A stretch of DNA of 64,000 bases from Intestinimonas sp. Lineage in GTDB: Bacteria; Bacillota; Clostridia; Oscillospirales; Oscillospiraceae. The stretch's first letter is position 1. Each line of letters starts with the position of its first letter. The notes under the pieces are model-generated. The model did not search any database, was not told the DNA's origin, and saw only the letters and a list, made by a program, of their open reading frames with translations. Both the position numbers and the translations under genes were made by a program. The stretch covers positions 1 to 64,000 of the forward strand of contig JALCSB010000010.1 of NCBI GenBank assembly GCA_022653075.1, given 5' to 3'. Below are positions 18,466 to 29,363 of the stretch, in pieces.

Positions 18466-18509
18466 GACATGGGGCCTCCTTTTTGTGGTTTTTAATCACG
18501 TTCAGGTAT

Positions 18510-18573
18510 ATGCTCAGCCTCGGTTTCGAAGATTCTGTTTTTGTCTCAAGGTTATCCGTCGCGGGTAAGCGCC
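18510..18573 (-). repeat. Decayed partial copy of the 3' end of the adjacent gene
   Basis: atgctcagcctcggtttcgaagattctgtttttgtctcaaggttatccgtcgcgggtaagcgcc matches 18609-18709 with a 36-nt gap. Confidence 0.75.
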
Positions 18574-18612
18574 TTCCTTTTTATTATTTTCAATCCACGC
18601 GCCGGGTGATGC

Positions 18613-19650
18613 TCAATTTCGGTTTCGAAGATTCAGGAGCTCGCGCAGAGTAAAGTTGTCGGCCGAAAGTTCTGTTTCTGTTTCACGGTATCCGTCGCAG
18701 GCAGTCGCCCTGCCGTCTGCCGTTATGCCCAGGTAGCAGGGACGTTGGGAGATAATGCGATCAATAAACAGGTGATCTGTATAATAATCAATCAAAAGTA
18801 CCGGGTATTTCTGCTCTACCCTGGCGTCATGGGCATATTCCTGTACCGCGGCGCAGTCCTCGTCGGAACAGTCCGGCCTGGCAAAGCAGAAGGCAAACAG
18901 CGGTCCCTGGCAAAGCAGCTTTTCCGTCCAGGCTCCGGATGTAATAAGCATAGCCTGTGCATGTGTGCTATACTGTATGTGCGCTCCCCACAGGCAATGG
19001 GTCCGGCGCAAATGGGCGGCGGCTTTTTCCCACCCCGGCTTCTGGGCAGAGACGGAGATTAAAAGGTTTTTGCATTCCGCCAGCAGGCGTACGCTGTTTT
19101 CGTCCACCAGCGCCTTTGGAAGCATCAGGACAAACGCGCACTCCGGCTCAGCATGGAACAATCGGATCAGTTCGGAGAGGTCGGCGCCCTCGCGCATCTC
19201 AAACAAATATACATACATGCCGAGTTCCTTGCCCTCACGGATAAGACGTTGGCAGCGCGCCATCTGGTTGCCGCCAACGCCCGGAGCCAGGTGGAAAAAG
19301 ATGGCCCAGGGAATCTCACAACCCAGCTCCGCCTCAAATTTTCGGATCCGTGCAGCTCCGCGAGACCAGCCGTTAAGCCCCGTGTTGATTCCAAATGTCT
19401 TCAGGATTTCATGGTCGACTCCCTCTACGGCGTTCCGAATTAGTGTATAGTAGGGGCTGTCTTCATTTTCCAGCATAGTTTGAGAAATATCAAAAAAGTA
19501 TGACTGGAACGGGCCCTTGGCAAACTGACCACCCATATCCACAAGTTTACGGATACTTCGTTTGGGGTCCTCGCTGATCTCACGAAGATAGCGTTCTACC
19601 ACGGATTCCACGACAATGCGCATAAATGCGTCATGGTCCAAAACAGGCAC
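18613..19650 (-). CDS. Degenerate radical-SAM-like protein lacking the CxxxCxxC cluster motif
   Basis: Colinear with the intact radical SAM at 19870: ELGCEIPWAIFFHLAPGVGGNQMARC vs KYGCNVPWAILMDPTSACNLHCTGCW; MYVYLFEMREGADLSELIRLFHAEPECAFVLMLPKALVDE vs FMYIYSGGEPLVRKNDIIKLCQAHPDCMFLAFTNATLIDE. Confidence 0.75.
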   Translation of the reverse strand: MPVLDHDAFMRIVVESVVERYLREISEDPKRSIRKLVDMGGQFAKGPFQSYFFDISQTMLENEDSPYYTLIRNAVEGVDHEILKTFGINTGLNGWSRGAARIRKFEAELGCEIPWAIFFHLAPGVGGNQMARCQRLIREGKELGMYVYLFEMREGADLSELIRLFHAEPECAFVLMLPKALVDENSVRLLAECKNLLISVSAQKPGWEKAAAHLRRTHCLWGAHIQYSTHAQAMLITSGAWTEKLLCQGPLFAFCFARPDCSDEDCAAVQEYAHDARVEQKYPVLLIDYYTDHLFIDRIISQRPCYLGITADGRATACDGYRETETELSADNFTLRELLNLRNRN

Positions 19651-19869
19651 CTCCCAGGCTTTAGAAAAATGAATTTTTTCTCATTACATAACAGTATGTT
19701 CTTATCTTTATCATATGTCCGTTTGATTTGCTGTGAAAGGGACAATTTAAGGTATTTGTCCCAAAAGGTTACACCCAACTGTTTTTGTCCGGAGACAAAA
19801 GATACCTGCGCGGGGTAGAATAAATATAAAAATCGGAAAATTTTCCCTCAGCTGCTGAAAAGGAGTTGT

Positions 19870-21255
19870 ATGTGTATGGGCGACAGAACCATCGGGGAGC
19901 AGGTGCAGACCTTTGCCCTGAAGAAAGTATTAAACTATCTAAACGAAGATCCGGATGTGGCTTTTCCCAAAATTTTGGAGTGGGTAGATCGGTTTGATAC
20001 TTCCGGTACAGTGGCATCACAGCGCAAGGTGTTTCACAATATTCTGGACCATCCTGACTGCAACTGGTATCGGCTGGCCAAGACTATCTGGAACTGCATC
20101 GACCCCCAGGTGCGCGCCACCTTTTTTGAGAATTTCATTCTGAACGCCTCCACCATCGGTATGCAGCGCCAGCATAAAGCCAAAGATAAATACGGCTGCA
20201 ACGTGCCTTGGGCCATCCTGATGGACCCCACCTCTGCCTGTAATCTGCATTGTACTGGCTGCTGGGCCGCGGAATACGGAAACAAGCTGAATATGGATTA
20301 CAACACTCTGGACAACATCATCCGCCAAGGTACCGAGACGGGTACTTTTATGTATATCTATTCCGGGGGGGAACCGCTGGTCCGTAAGAATGACATCATA
20401 AAGCTCTGCCAAGCGCACCCGGACTGTATGTTTCTGGCCTTCACCAACGCCACTCTGATCGACGAGGCTTTTGCCGACGAAATGCTGCGGGTCAAAAACT
20501 TTATTCCCGCGATCAGCATAGAGGGCTTTGAGGCGGAAACCGACTTCCGCCGCGGCAAAGGCACCTATGCTGCGGTGGCCCGCGCCATGTCCATTCTGAA
20601 GGCGAAGCACCTCCCCTTCGGTGCCTCTTGCTGCTATACCAGCAAAAATGTGGATACCATCGGCAGTGAGGAATATTTTGACGATCTTATCGAAAAAGGC
20701 TGCCTCTTTGCCTGGTTCTTTACCTATATGCCCGTGGGTCACGGAGCACCCACTGATCTGATGGCCACCGCCGACCAGCGGAAATTTATGTATGATCAGG
20801 TCCGCAAGTTCCGCAAAACCAAGCCTCTATTTACCATGGATTTCTGGAATGACGGCGAATATGTGAACGGCTGCATTGCCGGCGGCCGCAACTATCTGCA
20901 TATCAATGCCAACGGCGACATTGAGCCCTGCGCTTTCATTCACTATTCTGATTCCAATATTCACACGCATACGCTGCTCCAGGCCTATCAGAATCCTCTG
21001 TTTATGCAGTACCATGACCACCAGCCCTTCAGCCCCAACCATCTGCGCCCCTGTCCGCTGCTGGATAATCATGGCGCACTGGCTGAAATGATCCATCACT
21101 CCGGCGCACAGTCTACGGATATGCTGGTAGCGGAGGACGTGGATGAACTGTGCGGCAAATGTAAATACGCGGCGGATCACTGGCAGCCTGTGGCGGATAG
21201 GCTGTGGACAGACTCGGGACACACTCTGCCCTGTGCAAGCGTCTGTGAGAAATAA
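19870..21255 (+). CDS. Radical SAM protein with C-terminal SPASM-like cysteines
   Basis: DPTSACNLHCTGCWAAEYG, YSGGEPLVRKNDI, CAFIHYSDSNIHTHTLLQAYQNPLF, CGKCKYAADHW; AAGGAG RBS. Confidence 0.92.
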   Translation: MCMGDRTIGEQVQTFALKKVLNYLNEDPDVAFPKILEWVDRFDTSGTVASQRKVFHNILDHPDCNWYRLAKTIWNCIDPQVRATFFENFILNASTIGMQRQHKAKDKYGCNVPWAILMDPTSACNLHCTGCWAAEYGNKLNMDYNTLDNIIRQGTETGTFMYIYSGGEPLVRKNDIIKLCQAHPDCMFLAFTNATLIDEAFADEMLRVKNFIPAISIEGFEAETDFRRGKGTYAAVARAMSILKAKHLPFGASCCYTSKNVDTIGSEEYFDDLIEKGCLFAWFFTYMPVGHGAPTDLMATADQRKFMYDQVRKFRKTKPLFTMDFWNDGEYVNGCIAGGRNYLHINANGDIEPCAFIHYSDSNIHTHTLLQAYQNPLFMQYHDHQPFSPNHLRPCPLLDNHGALAEMIHHSGAQSTDMLVAEDVDELCGKCKYAADHWQPVADRLWTDSGHTLPCASVCEK

Positions 21256-21285
21256 TCCTGTGATAGCAACGAGAGAATGGTGAAC

Positions 21286-22164
21286 ATGAGTAGTCAACAA
21301 TATCAGATCATAACGGATGCCACGTCAGACCTTTCCCCCGAACAGGTGAATCAGCTCGGCGTGGATGTCATTCCCATGACTCTAGATTTAAGCGGCACCT
21401 CCTACACCTTCGGTTCGGCGTACGACAGCATCACCACGGACGAGTTTTACACCCAACTCCGCCAGGGGAAAATAGCCTCGACCTCCCAGATTAATCCCAC
21501 CGTCTATCAAGAGCACTTCACGCAGTATTTGGAACAGGGGCTGGATATCCTGTATATCTGCTTCTCCTCCGGACTGTCCGGTACGATTCAGGCCGCGCGG
21601 CTGTGCATGGCCGACCTGCAAGAGGCTTTTCCCGACCGCACGCTTCTCTGCGTGGACTCCCTATGCGCCACAGGTGGAGAGGGGTTTTTGGTCCGGGAGG
21701 CGGTCGCCAGGCAGAAGGCGGGTCTGCCGATTAGTAAGCTCGCCCAGTGGCTGGAGGAGGAAAAGCTCCATGTAAGCCACTGGTTTACTGTGGATGATCT
21801 AGCCCATCTGCGCCGCGGTGGGCGCATTTCCGCCACTACCGCACTGGTGGGTTCCGCCCTTCAGATTAAGCCCGTCCTCCATGTGGATAACGAGGGCCGC
21901 CTGGTCAACATGGGAAAGGCACGGGGCCGAAAACGCTCCATTATCGCGCTGGCTGACCATATGGACGCCACATGGACCCCTGAGCGGGGCAAATTGGTAC
22001 ATATCGCCCACGGCTGCTGTCCCGAAGACGCGGATTTTCTTCGCCGGACTGTGCAAAAGCGGCATCCCGACGCAGAAATTACCGTCTATGACGTTGGCCC
22101 CATCGTCGGTGCCCACGGCGGCGTCGGCATCCTGACCTTGTTCTTCTGGGGCAAAGAGCGGTAA
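21286..22164 (+). CDS. DegV family (fatty acid-binding) protein
   Basis: QIITDATSDLSPEQVNQLGVDVIPMTL, SSGLSGTIQAARL, GGRISATTALVGSALQIKPVL. Confidence 0.93.
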   Translation: MSSQQYQIITDATSDLSPEQVNQLGVDVIPMTLDLSGTSYTFGSAYDSITTDEFYTQLRQGKIASTSQINPTVYQEHFTQYLEQGLDILYICFSSGLSGTIQAARLCMADLQEAFPDRTLLCVDSLCATGGEGFLVREAVARQKAGLPISKLAQWLEEEKLHVSHWFTVDDLAHLRRGGRISATTALVGSALQIKPVLHVDNEGRLVNMGKARGRKRSIIALADHMDATWTPERGKLVHIAHGCCPEDADFLRRTVQKRHPDAEITVYDVGPIVGAHGGVGILTLFFWGKER

Positions 22165-22812: not shown

Positions 22813-23958
22813 TCAGATGCCGCCGGCCGCGGCAGAGGTGGGCGTGAAAATGGAGTTAACCTGCTCGTCCGTCAAATCCACGCCGAATACCGTCTTGTAG
22901 TAATCTTTGGCTTTCGCGGTCACGTCGATGTCCTGGAACAGGTCTGGATAGACCGTTTTAGCCAGCCACAGCAGAGTCACGGGCGTGTCTACGCCGGGCG
23001 TATAGCCCCGGTAAAGTCCCAATGGCATCTTATAAACCCGCTGATTTTGTATGGCGGCCACGCCGCTCCAGTCATAGCTCCCAATGGTGTTGTGGTACAG
23101 ATTCTCGGGCTGCGCACTGGTAAAGTTGGTGACCAAAACGACATCGGGGTTCCAAGCATAGACCTGCTCCATATTGACCTGGACGGAGTTGTCGGTAGTC
23201 AGTTCCTCCCCCACGTTGACCGCGCCGACAGCGTCACACCACCACTGTCCAAAGAAATTCTTACCGGAGGACAGCATCGTGGTATCGCTGTACTGGAATA
23301 GGACAAAAATACGGGCTCGCTGGGTGTCGGTCAGGGAGGAAACCCGCTGCTGGATCATCTGGTAGACGTCGTCGCTGTACTGCTTCACCACATCGGCCTT
23401 GGCGTCCTGGGGGAACATCTCACTGAGCAGCGAAATCCACTGGTTCAGCGTCTCGATACAATTGTAATCCCACTTATTGACCGAGATGCCAACCGCTGCG
23501 AAACCGGCATTGCGCAACTGCTCGCCGATGGCGGTATCCGAAGAGCTGTAAAACACCACGTCGGGCTTCAGCTTCATCAGCTCTTCCGTATTAACCTGGT
23601 CGCCGGACACGCAATCGGTCTGGGCATTCAGGATCTCAGGGTACATCTGTCCCAACAGACTGTTCTGGGCGGCCGTCATGCTGGCCTTGGGCATCGCCAC
23701 AATTTTCTCCGCCGAATGGAAGAACACCGATAGGACCGAGGGCAGCGGGTAAATGCCGCAGACCGCGATGCGGTCGATTTTCACCGGCACTGTCACGGTG
23801 TTGTCCGCCTGATCCGTGATTGTGATGGTATCCGCCGGTGTGCTCTCTGTGGGAGCGGCACTGCCGCCAGCGGCTGTGCCGGCGCCCCCGCCGCAGCCGG
23901 CCAGAGACAGAGACAGTGCGGACACAAGAATAAAAGAGAACCATTTTTTACATTTCAT
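22813..23958 (-). CDS. ABC transporter substrate-binding lipoprotein (BtuF/FhuD/FecB-like)
   Basis: Lipobox LSLAGCGGG; ITITDQADNTVTVPVKIDRIAV; LMKLKPDVVFYSSSD. Confidence 0.9.
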   Translation of the reverse strand: MKCKKWFSFILVSALSLSLAGCGGGAGTAAGGSAAPTESTPADTITITDQADNTVTVPVKIDRIAVCGIYPLPSVLSVFFHSAEKIVAMPKASMTAAQNSLLGQMYPEILNAQTDCVSGDQVNTEELMKLKPDVVFYSSSDTAIGEQLRNAGFAAVGISVNKWDYNCIETLNQWISLLSEMFPQDAKADVVKQYSDDVYQMIQQRVSSLTDTQRARIFVLFQYSDTTMLSSGKNFFGQWWCDAVGAVNVGEELTTDNSVQVNMEQVYAWNPDVVLVTNFTSAQPENLYHNTIGSYDWSGVAAIQNQRVYKMPLGLYRGYTPGVDTPVTLLWLAKTVYPDLFQDIDVTAKAKDYYKTVFGVDLTDEQVNSIFTPTSAAAGGI

Positions 23959-25109
23959 AGGTTGATGCTTCCTTTCCCATTCAATGGTGAACCAATTAAA
24001 TCAGGTATATTTCTCCGGAAAATTCGCCCCGAAAACGCCTCGCTCGGCAGCGGGTAAAACTCGCTGCCACCTGGGCAGATTGGGCGGTACAGCGGATCTG
24101 CGAGGATGTGGTCGGACGGCTTCAGCAGAGCGATCAAGTCGTCCTCGTCCTTCGCTTCCATGTCCCCTTCAGCCAGCAGGCCCGGCTCGGTCTCCAGCGG
24201 ACACAGAACACGGGCGGAACGTCCGAATTCCTCTCCGATGGCGGCGGCCAGGGAGCCAGCGCTGACGCTCTCCCCGATGAGAGTCAGTGCGGGGCGCGCC
24301 TCCCGCGGCCGGCGTAGGTACGCGGCGCCGCAGCAACCGGTGTCGGCCGCCCGCTCCAGCGCGGCTATAAGCCGCCCTGAAAATTTCACACCGAATGGTA
24401 CGCCGACCACATAGGGTGTGCCAAAGAGCTTCTGCAACGTCCGGGCAGCCGTCAGGCCCGAATAGGAGACCACCAGATTGACGGAGGCCCGCCCGGCCTG
24501 GCTTAACTCATCCAGCGTGCTGCCCATCGCCCATGAGGAAATAACGGTAAACCCGTTTCCCTCCAGGATACTCCGCATGGACCCGTCACTGCCGTTTACG
24601 GAAAAGTCCAGCGGTGTCAGGCCCAGTAGATTCACCGACCGTCCCGGCTCCCGCCGCAGGCTCCGGTCGGCGAAGCGCCCCGCCACGGCGGCAAAGGCCA
24701 TACCTGCCCCGGACAAGTAGGAGTGCATCCCGTTGGTAGGCAGGCCAAAGGCCGGAATCCCCGTTCGGTGCTCTACCTCCGAGGCGATGGCGGGAAGATC
24801 CGTACCGATCATCATGGGGATGGGTGTCCCGCAGAGGGCGACAAACCGGGGGTGGAGCTCCAGCGCTGTCTCCGTGATGTCCCGGACGAGTTTTTCGTCG
24901 TCGCCCATGATGGCCTCCATCTCCGACAGGGCTGAGATAAACACCAGACTGTCCTGATCGTACCAGCGGGGTTCATCATGAGTATGGTAGGTGGAATTAC
25001 AGCCGGATGCGTCGTGGATAACGCACATGCCGCCCAGCTCGTAAAGCGCCGAACAGACGCCAGAGGAGTCGGCCGCGTAGGTGGAAATGATTCTCGCCGT
25101 CTGTTTCAT
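23955..25109 (-). CDS. Nitrogenase component 1-like protein (NifK/NifD family)
   Basis: ALYELGGMCVIHDASGCNSTYHTHDEPRW, FVALCGTPIPMMIGTDLPAIASEVEHRTGIPAFGLPTNG; 4-nt overlap with upstream gene. Confidence 0.85.
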   Translation of the reverse strand: MKQTARIISTYAADSSGVCSALYELGGMCVIHDASGCNSTYHTHDEPRWYDQDSLVFISALSEMEAIMGDDEKLVRDITETALELHPRFVALCGTPIPMMIGTDLPAIASEVEHRTGIPAFGLPTNGMHSYLSGAGMAFAAVAGRFADRSLRREPGRSVNLLGLTPLDFSVNGSDGSMRSILEGNGFTVISSWAMGSTLDELSQAGRASVNLVVSYSGLTAARTLQKLFGTPYVVGVPFGVKFSGRLIAALERAADTGCCGAAYLRRPREARPALTLIGESVSAGSLAAAIGEEFGRSARVLCPLETEPGLLAEGDMEAKDEDDLIALLKPSDHILADPLYRPICPGGSEFYPLPSEAFSGRIFRRNIPDLIGSPLNGKGSINL

Positions 25110-26434
25110 ATGCAGCACGCACACCCCAGTCCCTTTGCCTGAATGAGACTGCGGGCGTCCCTTTCCTCAAGATAGGCGCCGGTCATCAGGCCGGCCAGAC
25201 GGGCAATGCCGTCGTAGCCGTACATACCGCCGCCCTCGACGATGTTGACAAAGTGGCGGGTGCCGGTAAAGTAAGCCGCCTTTTGTCCTATCGCCAGCAC
25301 CGGCTCCCTGCCGGCTCTGGGAAGCACACGCATTTTGGGGTGTATGGTGGCCCGGAGCATTAGCTCCGGCACATGGGTCCGGAGCCAGCCGAAGGCCCCG
25401 CGCTCCTCCTCGTTTATGGCGTCCAGATACACGGAAGCCACACGGAATCCATGCTGGCAGAGCAGCCTTGCCAGACCCAGCGGCCTGGGCGTGGCCGTAT
25501 AGTCCACCGAAACCGCCATATCCCCGATAACCTCCCGAGCCCCCTGGAGCGCCCGCTCCGCCCGCGCCCGGCCCGGCGCGGTCTGTGGTGCATCTATGCT
25601 CAGGCATCCGGCAAGGCGGCATAGGTTGTCCTCAATTTCATCATAGTCAAACGACTGGGGAAGATACAGCTGCTTCTGACCCAGCCGCCGCTCCAGTTCC
25701 TCGCAGCCCGCCACCGCAGACGGATATGTGGAAAGATTGACCGATGCTTCCGCCATCTCCTGGTACTCACCATAGGTTCTGCACCAGGTGATGTCCCGTA
25801 GGCGGAACCCGTTTTTCTGAATCATCCGTACCAGTTCGGACGATGCGTCGGTGGGCAGATCGTTGCCGATGAGATTCACCGCTTTGGGATCCTTGGGCCG
25901 CGGCTTCAGCAGGCTGTACAGCTGCTTCCGCATGAGCTGGTCGGGGGTTAGTCCGCTTTTCCGCATGATGGGGTTCATATAACAGTCGGTGAATGCGGTT
26001 TGGGGAAAGCGCTCCCGCAGCACCCGGTAGACCTGGGGCAGGTCGCAGCTCATGAAATGGTGAATACAGCTGGTAAAAATGAGCACCGCCGGCGGCATAC
26101 AGGGCAGCTTGTTCAAAATGTCTGTAACGCCGTCGATGATCAGCTCCTCCATGTCCCCGTCCAGTACGTTTTCCTCCCGGATTTCCACGGTGGAAAACCG
26201 CTCCTCGGCCTTCATCTCCGCCGCCGTCAGCACCACGCCGCGCAGGCACCCGGCGGCGCAGACAAAGATCTGATGGGCTTCCGGGAGAAGCATACCCGTG
26301 TGGACAATATTCCACATGCCACGGGCCGGGGCGCCGTACTCCAGTCCCGAGGGAAACGGCGCCGGGAACGCGGCGTCCTTTATGGCGACCGCCGCTCCGG
26401 TCTCGTCGGGTTCAGCTCCTATCCGTTTGAGCAT
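25106..26434 (-). CDS. Nitrogenase component 1-like protein (NifD family)
   Basis: HQIFVCAAGCLRGVVLTAAEM, AVLIFTSCIHHFMSCD, KAVNLIGNDLPTDASSELVRMIQKNGFRLRDI, GGMYGYDGIARLAGLM; start MLKRIGAEP at 26434. Confidence 0.83.
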   Translation of the reverse strand: MLKRIGAEPDETGAAVAIKDAAFPAPFPSGLEYGAPARGMWNIVHTGMLLPEAHQIFVCAAGCLRGVVLTAAEMKAEERFSTVEIREENVLDGDMEELIIDGVTDILNKLPCMPPAVLIFTSCIHHFMSCDLPQVYRVLRERFPQTAFTDCYMNPIMRKSGLTPDQLMRKQLYSLLKPRPKDPKAVNLIGNDLPTDASSELVRMIQKNGFRLRDITWCRTYGEYQEMAEASVNLSTYPSAVAGCEELERRLGQKQLYLPQSFDYDEIEDNLCRLAGCLSIDAPQTAPGRARAERALQGAREVIGDMAVSVDYTATPRPLGLARLLCQHGFRVASVYLDAINEEERGAFGWLRTHVPELMLRATIHPKMRVLPRAGREPVLAIGQKAAYFTGTRHFVNIVEGGGMYGYDGIARLAGLMTGAYLEERDARSLIQAKGLGCACCI

Positions 26435-26435
26435 T

Positions 26436-27197
26436 TTACTTCTCCTTTCCGCACACGTGCAGAATGGCCTCGGCCAGCCTCCGGTACTCTCCAGCCATAG
26501 CGCTGTCCGGGAACGCCTCCACCACGGTCTTTCCCAGCTCCTCCGCCTCCTGTACCGTTTCGCTCCGGTCCAGGATCCCGATAATGCCGGTATGCACATC
26601 CTCGGCCAGTTCTTCCACCTTCTCCTGTTCTTTTTTGACGTTCCGGCGATTCAAAACAATGCCGCCCAGTTCGGCGTACCCGCGGGAGCGGAAGTTATCC
26701 ACCGCCAGTGCAATATTAGCCGCGGCATGGAGGGCCATATTTTCTCCCGAGGTCAAAATAAACACCTTATCGGCATAGCCTCGGCGCATGGGCACGGAAA
26801 AGCCGCCGCAGACCACGTCGCCCAGTACGTCGTAAATAATAACGTCGGGCCTGAATGTCTCAAAGGCGCCCTTCTCCCGCAGCTTCTCCAGCGCGGCGGT
26901 AATGCCCCGCCCGGCACAGCCCAGGCCCGGTGTGGGTCCACCCGCTTCCACGCAGAGAACCCCCCGATACCCCCTGGATACCATATCGTCCAGGGTCAGG
27001 CCGCCGCCCCGCTCCCGGATAAGGTCCAGAACCGTCCGGGCCGACCTTCCGCCCAGAAGGCTGGAGGTGGAATCGGCCTTTGGGTCGCAGCCAATCTGCA
27101 TCACGGTCAGTCCCTGCTCGGCAAGCGCCGCGGAGACATTTGACACCGTGGTGGATTTCCCGATCCCGCCCTTTCCATAAACCGCAAACTGTATCAT
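26436..27197 (-). CDS. Nitrogenase iron protein-like ATPase (NifH/CfbC/BchL family)
   Basis: [38 protein letters not shown]; cluster cysteines GLGCAGRGI and [11 protein letters not shown]. Confidence 0.93.
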
Positions 27198-28252
27198 CTG
27201 TGTTCCTCCCTGCTTTTGTAATCGCCCCGGGAAACGACCACCTCATAGCCGATCTCCCGCATGTGGCTCCGCAGGATATTCAGGCTTTCGGCGGCATCCT
27301 CTCCGGTGATGGCCTTATTGTCGTAAAGCGTGTAGTTCTTCCGCACCCCCACGGGAGACAAATTGGGCATGACCACATTCGCCCCCGCCAGCACACCCAG
27401 CTGCCGCCCGTCGCCACACACCGTACCCAGAGCGGTGGTGGCAGGCAGAAGCACATCCGGCAGCATGATGCGGCAAAGGCTCAGCAGTAGAAGCGTCGTC
27501 TCCGTGCTGCCGGCCGGACAGTCCCGAAAGGGCGTACCGTGGTGGGGAATAAACGGACCGATGCCGATCATCTCCGGCCGGAACCGGCTCATAAACACCA
27601 TATCCTCCGCCAGACATTCCACCGTCTGAAAGGGAGAACCCACCATCATGCCACAGCCCGTCTGGTACCCGATGTCCTTCAAATCCCGCAGGCAGCGCAT
27701 GCGGTTCCGCCACGACTGCTCCGGCGGGTGCAGCCTGCCGTAGTGGGCCTCGTCGGCTGTTTCATGCCGCAGCAGATACCGATTGGCTCCGGCATCAAAA
27801 AAGCACTTATATGCCTCGCGGCTTTTTTCCCCAACGGAGAGCGTTATGGCACAGTCCGGAAACTCCGCCCGGATGGCGGAGACGATGTCCGTTATCCGCC
27901 CGTCGGTAAAGTACGGGTCCTCTCCGCCCTGAAGCACGAACGTGCGAAACCCCGCCTGATATCCGGCGTGGCAGCACAGAAGGATTTCCTCCTTCGTCAG
28001 GCGGTACCGGACGGCACCGGTATTTTCCCGGCGGATACCGCAGTACAGGCAGTTATTTTTGCAGTAGTTGGTAAACTCTACAATTCCCCGGATATAGATT
28101 TTATTTCCGAAGCGGGCCGTTGTGATCGCGCGGGCCTTCTCCGCGGCGTAGGTTCTGTCCTCCTCGGTAAAGGTCCCCAGCAGCCGAACCCACTGGTCTG
28201 CGGGCAATGCCCGTTCCCGCTTCAGCCGGTCAATCCGTTCCGTGTTTTTCAT
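27194..28252 (-). CDS. HydE-like radical SAM protein
   Basis: [68 protein letters not shown]: HydE/PylB/BioB-type features. Confidence 0.87.
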
Positions 28253-29363
28253 CTCGGAATTCCTTCTTTCTCGGAAACACACCGGGGGCGTAGGTCGCCT
28301 TCACGCTGACCCCCGGCAGAATGCTCAGCCTTGCCACCAGCGTCTGAATCTCCCGCTCGGGCGCGTCAAAGGTGATCGTAATGATATGGACGCCGCCGTC
28401 CGGATAGGGCATGCCCATGCGGCCCACCGCGTAGCGGCCATACGCATGCAAAAGGTCATTGATCTTCTCTGCCGCACCGCCGCAGCCATCCGCCATAATA
28501 ATCGAGACAATGGCTAGGCTCCGCGAACCACTCCTGGCGGCATGACTCATGGGGGCCCCCGTATCCCGAGTCACCCACAGCGGGACCACGTCCCGCAGGA
28601 CCTGGCCCGGCGTCTCAATCTCCCCGATGACAGCCCTGACTCCAAAGGCCCGCTGAATATTCTCCTCCGTGACCACCTGACCCACCTCACCGAACAGGGA
28701 ATCCCCGTTTTCGCCCAGCAGAAGGGCCTTGTTCGCCCGCTGCATGGCGTGGGCGGGAAAGTGGGTATTAAATACGCATGTCATACCATCGGCGGCCAGC
28801 GCCGACAGGGTCTCCATAATGAGAAGCTGGTTTTTAAAGTCCAGATTGGATTCCGGTTCGTCCAGAATCAAAATTCTGGGCTCGGCGGCCAGCGCCCGGG
28901 CAATCAGTACCATCTGAAGCTCGCCGCCGCTGATCTCCGAGCATCTTTTTCGCATCAGTTTGGTAATGTGCAGGCGCTCCATAGCGGCGTGGGCCCTGTC
29001 CAGGTCCTCCGGTCCCGGCTGGGCAAACATGCCAATATGGCTGCTCCTGCCCAGCAGGACCATTTCCTCGGCGGTACAGGCGGATGCCGCACCGCGTGCC
29101 TGAGGCACATAAGCAAGGCTGGTCCAGCGCTCCCGGAACGGCATCTTGTGAATATCCCGTCCGTCGAGCAGGCTCTGCCCGCTTTTCCAGCGCAGAAACC
29201 CCATCGTACACCGCAAAAGCGTGGTCTTTCCGGCTCCGTTCGGCCCCAGAATCGCGACGATATCGCCAGGCCGGGTTTCAAAATTTACATTGCGCAGAAT
29301 CGGGCGGCCGTTTTTTCCGTAAGAATAGCAGCCGTCCTTCACCGTCAGCGTCACAGCCGCCAC
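28230..29363 (-). CDS. FepC/BtuD-type ABC ATPase with fused C-terminal TM1266-like domain
   Basis: LGPNGAGKTTLLRC, EISGGELQMVLIARALAAEPRILILDEPESNLD, then LAIVSIIMADGCGGAAEKINDLLHAYGRYAVGRMGMPYPDGGVHIITITFDAPEREIQTLVARLSILPGVSVKATYAPG. Confidence 0.88.
   Translation of the reverse strand: MAAVTLTVKDGCYSYGKNGRPILRNVNFETRPGDIVAILGPNGAGKTTLLRCTMGFLRWKSGQSLLDGRDIHKMPFRERWTSLAYVPQARGAASACTAEEMVLLGRSSHIGMFAQPGPEDLDRAHAAMERLHITKLMRKRCSEISGGELQMVLIARALAAEPRILILDEPESNLDFKNQLLIMETLSALAADGMTCVFNTHFPAHAMQRANKALLLGENGDSLFGEVGQVVTEENIQRAFGVRAVIGEIETPGQVLRDVVPLWVTRDTGAPMSHAARSGSRSLAIVSIIMADGCGGAAEKINDLLHAYGRYAVGRMGMPYPDGGVHIITITFDAPEREIQTLVARLSILPGVSVKATYAPGVFPRKKEFRDEKHGTD

Follow-up and report, generated by a model that had tools for sequence, protein, structure and literature searches.

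The question raised by the locus

In the window, by which is meant the whole stretch of 64,000 nucleotides analysed here, a radical-SAM gene is faced by a divergent gene for what appears to be its own paralogue without the cluster motif, and so the question is what such a stripped enzyme is kept for. The initial annotation took the product for a pseudoenzyme that may act as partner, regulator or substrate scaffold of the neighbouring enzyme. That it is a pseudoenzyme is borne out by a conserved family under purifying dN/dS values, a radical-SAM fold and a conserved pairing with the enzyme, all set out below, and the likely nature of its role follows from a third gene that lies on another contig in this genome. 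Features of the locus are collected in Table 1.

Table 1. Features of the window near the divergent pair (positions in the window)
Feature	Position	Strand	Basis or remark
Pseudo-radical-SAM protein gene	18613..19641	-	likely TTG start, 342 aa; Shine-Dalgarno, homologue N-termini
Predicted pseudo-radical-SAM promoter	19710..19737	-	-35 TTCACA (19737-19732), -10 TATGAT (19715-19710); just downstream of operator
Operator-like inverted repeat GGGACA-N12-TGTCCC	19739..19762	.	intergenic, enzyme/pseudo-enzyme promoter region
18-bp perfect palindrome TTTTGTCCGGAGACAAAA	19783..19800	.	over -35 region of active gene
Predicted active-gene promoter	19792..19821	+	GAGACA-N18-TAGAAT; consensus match only
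Active paralogue, radical SAM with SPASM-like C-terminus	19870..21255	+	CNLHCTGC; family uncharacterised; PF04055 E 1.3e-13, alignment, model, Foldseek
DegV (fatty-acid-binding family) gene	21277..22164	+	PF02645 E 8.9e-69; 22 bp 3' of active gene
Heme/siderophore-type substrate-binding lipoprotein	22813-23958	-	adjoins nitrogenase-like cluster
NifE/NifD-like protein	23955-25124	-	nitrogenase-like cluster
Open frame without family match	25106-26599	-	nitrogenase-like cluster
NifH/CfbC-like ATPase	26436-27197	-	nitrogenase-like cluster
HydE	27194-28282	-	TIGR03956, 557 bits against cut-off 255

Homology to the active enzyme and loss of its catalytic parts

The frame at 18613-19650 on the reverse strand is open through 345 codons, as initially annotated, when it is read from the GTG at 19650 (345 aa). 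The start is nevertheless likely to be the TTG at 19641, giving a product MDHDAFMR..., because a GGGAGG lies 8 nt upstream of it, homologues begin MDxDAF and the GTG itself overlaps the GGGAGG. The starts of the two divergent ORFs are 219 bp apart, or 228 bp when counted from the TTG. Homology of the product to the enzyme, and the divergent placing of the two genes, had been seen correctly from the letters: BLASTP aligns the two colinearly over residues 17-318 at 22% identity (E 3e-22), and the HMM-HMM comparison that had been proposed as a check, done here by hhalign between the pseudo-enzyme and active families, gives a probability of 100% and E 1.7e-39 over 332 columns.

What the pseudo-enzymes have lost is clear from a joint alignment of 47 of them with 29 active enzymes. 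CxxxCxxC is absent from this ORF, as had been claimed, and from every pseudo-enzyme ORF collected. The motif site, described at first as replaced, is rather deleted, with a gap in 47/47 members that removes the second and third Cys together with the W...YG after them. Gone as well in this alignment are GGEP, N-x-T after strand 3, S-x-E, D-x-RRG and the MPVG loop, and at the positions matching C335, C354 and C395 of the active enzyme the SPASM auxiliary-cluster cysteines are missing or unconserved; a PF04055 search of the 47 sequences gave 0 matches. The C-terminal 'CYLG...ACDGY' region does remain as initially stated, although as a remnant of the fold and not as a kept cluster site, since GGEP, N-x-T, S-x-E, D-x-RRG and the SPASM cysteines went with the rest and its Cys318 is unconserved. 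Common to both families are N89, G98, P114, W115, G140, G144, F173, N195, Y227, R277 and D292. Conserved in the pseudo-enzymes specifically are R31, R34, L36, D38, G46, Q49, Y67, Y68, G87, G91 and R103, which lie in the N-terminal helices, and so, with the catalytic motifs gone, constraint has shifted away from the catalytic site and into the N-terminal domain.

An AlphaFold2 model of the pseudo-enzyme built with 47 sequences (pLDDT 95, pTM 0.92) bears out the radical-SAM fold, prediction of which had been named as a further check, and has five helices at the N-terminus, a partial barrel of six strands and a hairpin at the C-terminus. Its closest solved structures by Foldseek are SuiB and SkfB, at E 1e-6 to 1e-5 and a TM-score of about 0.5. 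The predicted structure of the active enzyme is laid out alike, its matches being SkfB, anSME and SuiB. Judged by model and alignment, the pseudo-enzyme is a radical-SAM/SPASM fold by descent that falls outside the radical-SAM enzymes proper.

Distribution and selection

The pseudo-enzymes form a Clostridia-wide family without a Pfam or NCBIfam model, of which about 70 non-redundant copies were collected. Named carriers are Tissierella praeacuta, Acetobacterium tundrae, two Fusibacter species, Butyrivibrio proteoclasticus and Intestinimonas, together with many gut MAGs, and about 40 of the 401 genomes from the taxonomic family of the source organism hold a copy. The whole source genome has one pseudo-enzyme and, on another contig, a second active paralogue. 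A search of plasmids for the pseudo-enzyme gave none, and a literature search on pseudo-radical-SAM proteins found nothing relevant among the papers covered. The tree places all pseudo-enzymes in a single clade (support 0.90) on a long stem. Pairwise dN/dS among them is 0.10-0.37 for the 21 pairs with measurable dS, against 0.03-0.12 for their active partners. The initial annotation had left the choice between selection and recent degradation, and had named missing homologues with a dN/dS near 1 as the mark of a decaying copy; with these values and a monophyletic family across Clostridia, selection stands and recent decay falls away.

In three loci (L130:2925-4748, L132:5185-7008 and L067:6588-8345) the pseudo-radical-SAM ORF is lengthened at its N-terminus by an open stretch of about 250 residues; those of L130 and L067 gave no Pfam match, and the three could be genuine fusions or frames that are open by chance.

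Neighbours of the active gene

The DegV gene follows the active gene in 9 of the 31 loci with room for it, which hints weakly at fatty acids as the substrate class. A membrane-spanning lipid synthase, a candidate prompted by the nearby DegV and VTT genes, was set aside, the active protein being best matched by anSME, SkfB and SuiB in sequence as well as fold. A RiPP system with a precursor peptide was rejected: among small ORFs within 1.5 kb of the gene units none was conserved, the largest cluster of them being mainly DegV antisense. The PADLOC defence search returned just a weak viperin similarity, in the active enzyme. Further along the window, at 22813-28282 on the reverse strand, there is a nitrogenase-like cluster.

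The three-gene module and its DhaS-like TetR

Across 71 non-redundant loci the active gene lies upstream of, and divergent from, the pseudo-enzyme gene in 41, so that the pseudo/active pair which the initial annotation suggested looking for in related genomes does recur. Convergent with the pseudo-enzyme gene in 40/71 loci is a TetR gene, within about 600 bp and typically about 50 bp downstream; nine further loci have one at another place in the locus, and in 25 both active enzyme and TetR adjoin the pseudo-enzyme. This TetR is DhaS-like, with matches to PDB 4mk6 (E 1.4e-19) and to 2iu5 (E 4e-13), the latter being DhaS, the dihydroxyacetone kinase activator (PMC12647141). Against TIGR02366 it scores 115-129 bits for a cut-off of 129, that is, at or just under the DhaS equivalog threshold. 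The five strongest matches to TIGR02366 outside the source genome in a class-level search include two genes that converge on a pseudo-radical-SAM gene and a third that neighbours an active radical-SAM gene.

The source genome has its TetR orthologue, which is 64% identical to the one in the congener G005, on contig 1 next to an asparaginase-like gene, and the DhaS-like TetR was invisible to the initial annotation because it is on that other contig. No operator stands in front of this orthologue, which counts against a co-regulatory role. A remnant of the TetR gene was sought 3' of the pseudo-radical-SAM gene in the window and none was found. Imperfect direct repeats of 77-79% identity (18477-18709) surround the 3' end of the gene and occupy the place that the TetR gene has in relatives, perhaps as the scar of a rearrangement; with the TetR on contig 1, these repeats make the module look rearranged here. 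Elsewhere (L158:483-3070, on G475:C27) a DhaS-like TetR gene lies next to two others, one DegV-like and one radical-SAM activase-like.

Many sampled genomes are MAGs with broken contigs, so that absences of genes are provisional. With this proviso, five genomes with a solo pseudo-enzyme gene, four of them having the adjacent TetR, yielded no enzyme of the active family, and neither did genome G311, where the pseudo-enzyme again has its TetR alongside. Genomes G012, G148 and G173 hold the pseudo-enzyme with neither a close TetR nor the enzyme, and these count against the co-regulator reading.

Operator-like repeat and predicted promoters

The operator core GGACA-N12-TGTCC emerged de novo from k-mer and inverted-repeat counts in intergenic regions, before the link to DhaS was known. 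It is present, with spacer 12, in 22/40 paired enzyme/pseudo-enzyme promoter regions where shuffling leads one to expect 0.125 loci of 40. As these are the very regions in which the motif was discovered, more weight belongs to the specificity of the spacer, to the solo and TetR regions, to the scan of the whole genome and to the control in coding sequence. The core stands ahead of solo pseudo-enzyme genes in 9 of 31 regions and ahead of the TetR gene in 14 of 49 (mostly with spacer 12, some with 11), and control CDS stretches have it in 3 of 71. The 18 paired regions of 40 that are without an exact core speak against the co-regulator reading.

Scanned over the whole source genome, a longer operator pattern matches solely at 19736-19764. 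In G005 it is likewise found solely in the pair, in G008 there is a single exact match in the pair plus one mismatched match elsewhere, and in G169 the operator is at the pair and at two places ahead of the TetR gene. Genome G309 has a second active radical-SAM paralogue, which is unpaired; a one-mismatch operator some 70 bp ahead of it (G309:C213:19643-19671) suggests that this gene may belong to the same regulon.

A -10-like hexamer is found 24 nt past the operator, toward the pseudo-enzyme, in 15/22 loci, and therefore the operator sits just upstream of the -35 box, a position typical of activators. The palindrome listed in Table 1 has one exact match, and shuffles expect 0.14 even when up to 2 mismatches are allowed; TGTC/GACA elements related to it occur in other pairs. 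Related DhaS-like regulators of Listeria innocua and Paraclostridium have AGACA-N12-TGTCT directly adjoining the regulator gene. At the Listeria innocua locus (L160:5001-7371) this element lies between the TetR gene and the oleate hydratase gene that follows, and this TetR is a possible fatty-acid-responsive member of the DhaS-like family.

Co-evolution, proposed mechanism and alternatives

For the 28 loci that hold all three genes, tree distances of pseudo-enzyme and TetR correlate at r 0.81, those of pseudo-enzyme and active enzyme at 0.49 and those of enzyme and TetR at 0.47, with the caveat that a slowly evolving enzyme gives noisier distances. Partial correlations are 0.75, 0.21 and 0.15 in the same order, and the pseudo-enzyme/TetR value exceeded the pseudo-enzyme/active-enzyme value in 1000/1000 bootstraps. 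Shared species history or joint transfer is not a ready explanation of this difference, given that the three genes lie side by side.

Sequence and analogy make it reasonably probable that the pseudo-enzyme, a paralogue of the divergent radical-SAM enzyme that has lost catalysis, senses a ligand and, together with a DhaS-like TetR, co-regulates transcription. We propose this role because DhaQ and DhaS show this same pattern, down to the operator spacing, which was found here before the regulator was recognised as DhaS-like. The pseudo-enzyme would hold the active enzyme's substrate or product in its emptied barrel and would dock onto the TetR, probably via the N-terminal five-helix domain, which holds conserved residues absent from the enzyme (R31, R34, D38, Q49, Y67, Y68, G87, G91 and R103). 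Seated on the operator, next to the -35 box on its upstream side, the complex would then switch on the pseudo-enzyme gene, and the same operator region would also switch on the active enzyme, the direction of regulation being presumed; the enzyme is taken as a regulated gene because of the operator in its promoter region. It is co-evolution that supports the putative stable, ligand-dependent complex of pseudo-enzyme and TetR. The wider claim, that a stripped radical-SAM fold is the ligand receptor of a DhaS-type TetR controlling the active paralogue, and shows that this TetR branch repeatedly recruits dead enzyme paralogues as sensors, has about an even chance of being right.

Inactive subunits serve as scaffold or allosteric subunit in other heteromeric enzymes, and the pseudo-enzyme might similarly complex with the active enzyme. 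The divergent, apparently co-regulated pair in 41 loci would fit this, as would the presence of the enzyme in 34/40 pseudo-positive against 93/361 other genomes of the family sample (odds ratio 16, p 2e-13) and tree distances that correlate at r 0.42-0.49. That correlation, however, drops to 0.21 given the TetR while pseudo-enzyme and TetR hold at 0.75, several genomes carry the pseudo-enzyme without a detectable enzyme, and a mean column identity of 35% for the pseudo-enzyme against 61% for the enzyme is a freedom to diverge unusual for an obligate subunit, which together leave a heteromeric partnership unlikely. Among the roles initially suggested regulator is therefore favoured, although through transcription with a DhaS-like TetR, and partner and substrate scaffold are weakened because the pseudo-enzyme co-evolves with the TetR and the two are kept without a detectable enzyme. 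Rather improbable is that the pseudo-enzyme contacts both enzyme and TetR and signals enzyme occupancy to the promoter, much as Escherichia coli DhaK and DhaL report to DhaR in a dual-reporter manner; linkage to both neighbours and the co-occurrence with the enzyme would be accounted for, but the residual co-evolution with the enzyme is weak and the pseudo-enzyme persists where the enzyme is missing.

The operator by itself could mean ordinary TetR regulation with the pseudo-enzyme a mere target, which is a point against co-regulation. A protein that acts by itself as a binder or chaperone (of a lipid or peptide precursor, say) and simply shares the enzyme's regulon could draw on the DegV gene after the active gene in 9/31 loci and on a fold nearest the peptide maturases SuiB and SkfB; the small-ORF scan near the pair gave none conserved and co-evolution points to the TetR, and so such a binder is very improbable. 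A decaying duplicate heading for loss would agree with the vanished catalytic site, the imperfect repeats at the 3' end and the fragmented copies, few in the family, yet an old monophyletic family with conserved residues, the dN/dS of its 21 pairs, the conservation of operator and gene order and a model at pLDDT 95 refute it for the family and leave it barely credible for this gene.

Should the co-regulator reading be true, the radical-SAM fold joins those turned into transcription co-regulators, and a family without Pfam or NCBIfam model gains a testable role. The ligand that makes pseudo-enzyme and TetR act on the operator should then be substrate or product of the enzyme, which opens a route to what this radical-SAM enzyme, widespread among gut Clostridia, acts on. 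It also suggests that partnerless DhaS-like regulators are worth checking for an adjacent dead enzyme.

Comparison with known systems

Radical-SAM homologues without the cluster motif are also known as the NCBIfam pseudo-SAM/SPASM proteins, such as TIGR04347 of Halobacteria and TIGR04150 (GG-Bacteroidales). Membership of such known families was rejected, 0/47 members matching the models, and in contrast to them the present family lacks a precursor peptide and comes with a TetR and an operator of its own. Among solved folds the closest to pseudo-enzyme and active enzyme alike are the radical-SAM/SPASM peptide maturases SuiB and SkfB, but unlike the pseudo-enzyme they are catalytic, with clusters and peptide substrates, and sequence identity is 10-18%. 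Dph1-Dph2, a non-canonical radical-SAM heterodimer, is similarly a paralogous pair of which one member, Dph2, is not catalytic; its fold is different, no TetR is present there, Dph2 keeps its cluster and both make one enzyme.

The nearest parallel is DhaQ-DhaS of Lactococcus lactis. DhaQ is reported to be an inactive paralogue of DhaK, a kinase subunit, and to bind dihydroxyacetone and complex with the TetR-type activator DhaS, which reportedly protects GGACACAT-N6-ATTTGTCC beside the -35 box. This site amounts to GGACA-N12-TGTCC on the -35 side of the promoter and matches the operator described here; the dha operon was sought in the plasmid collection as a check on it and not found, and the related regulators had the same spacing. 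DhaS and DhaQ have been named as regulators of DhaKLM (PMC10746215). Here too a dead paralogue of the regulated enzyme adjoins a DhaS-type TetR (40/71 loci, the source genome not among them). In contrast to DhaQ, which has the dihydroxyacetone-kinase fold, the pseudo-enzymes have a radical-SAM fold and gave no Pfam match to a dihydroxyacetone-kinase domain; the regulated enzyme is a radical-SAM enzyme, and the TetR reaches the DhaS equivalog cut-off or falls slightly short of it. Overall the arrangement would be the DhaQ/DhaS logic rebuilt upon a radical-SAM fold.
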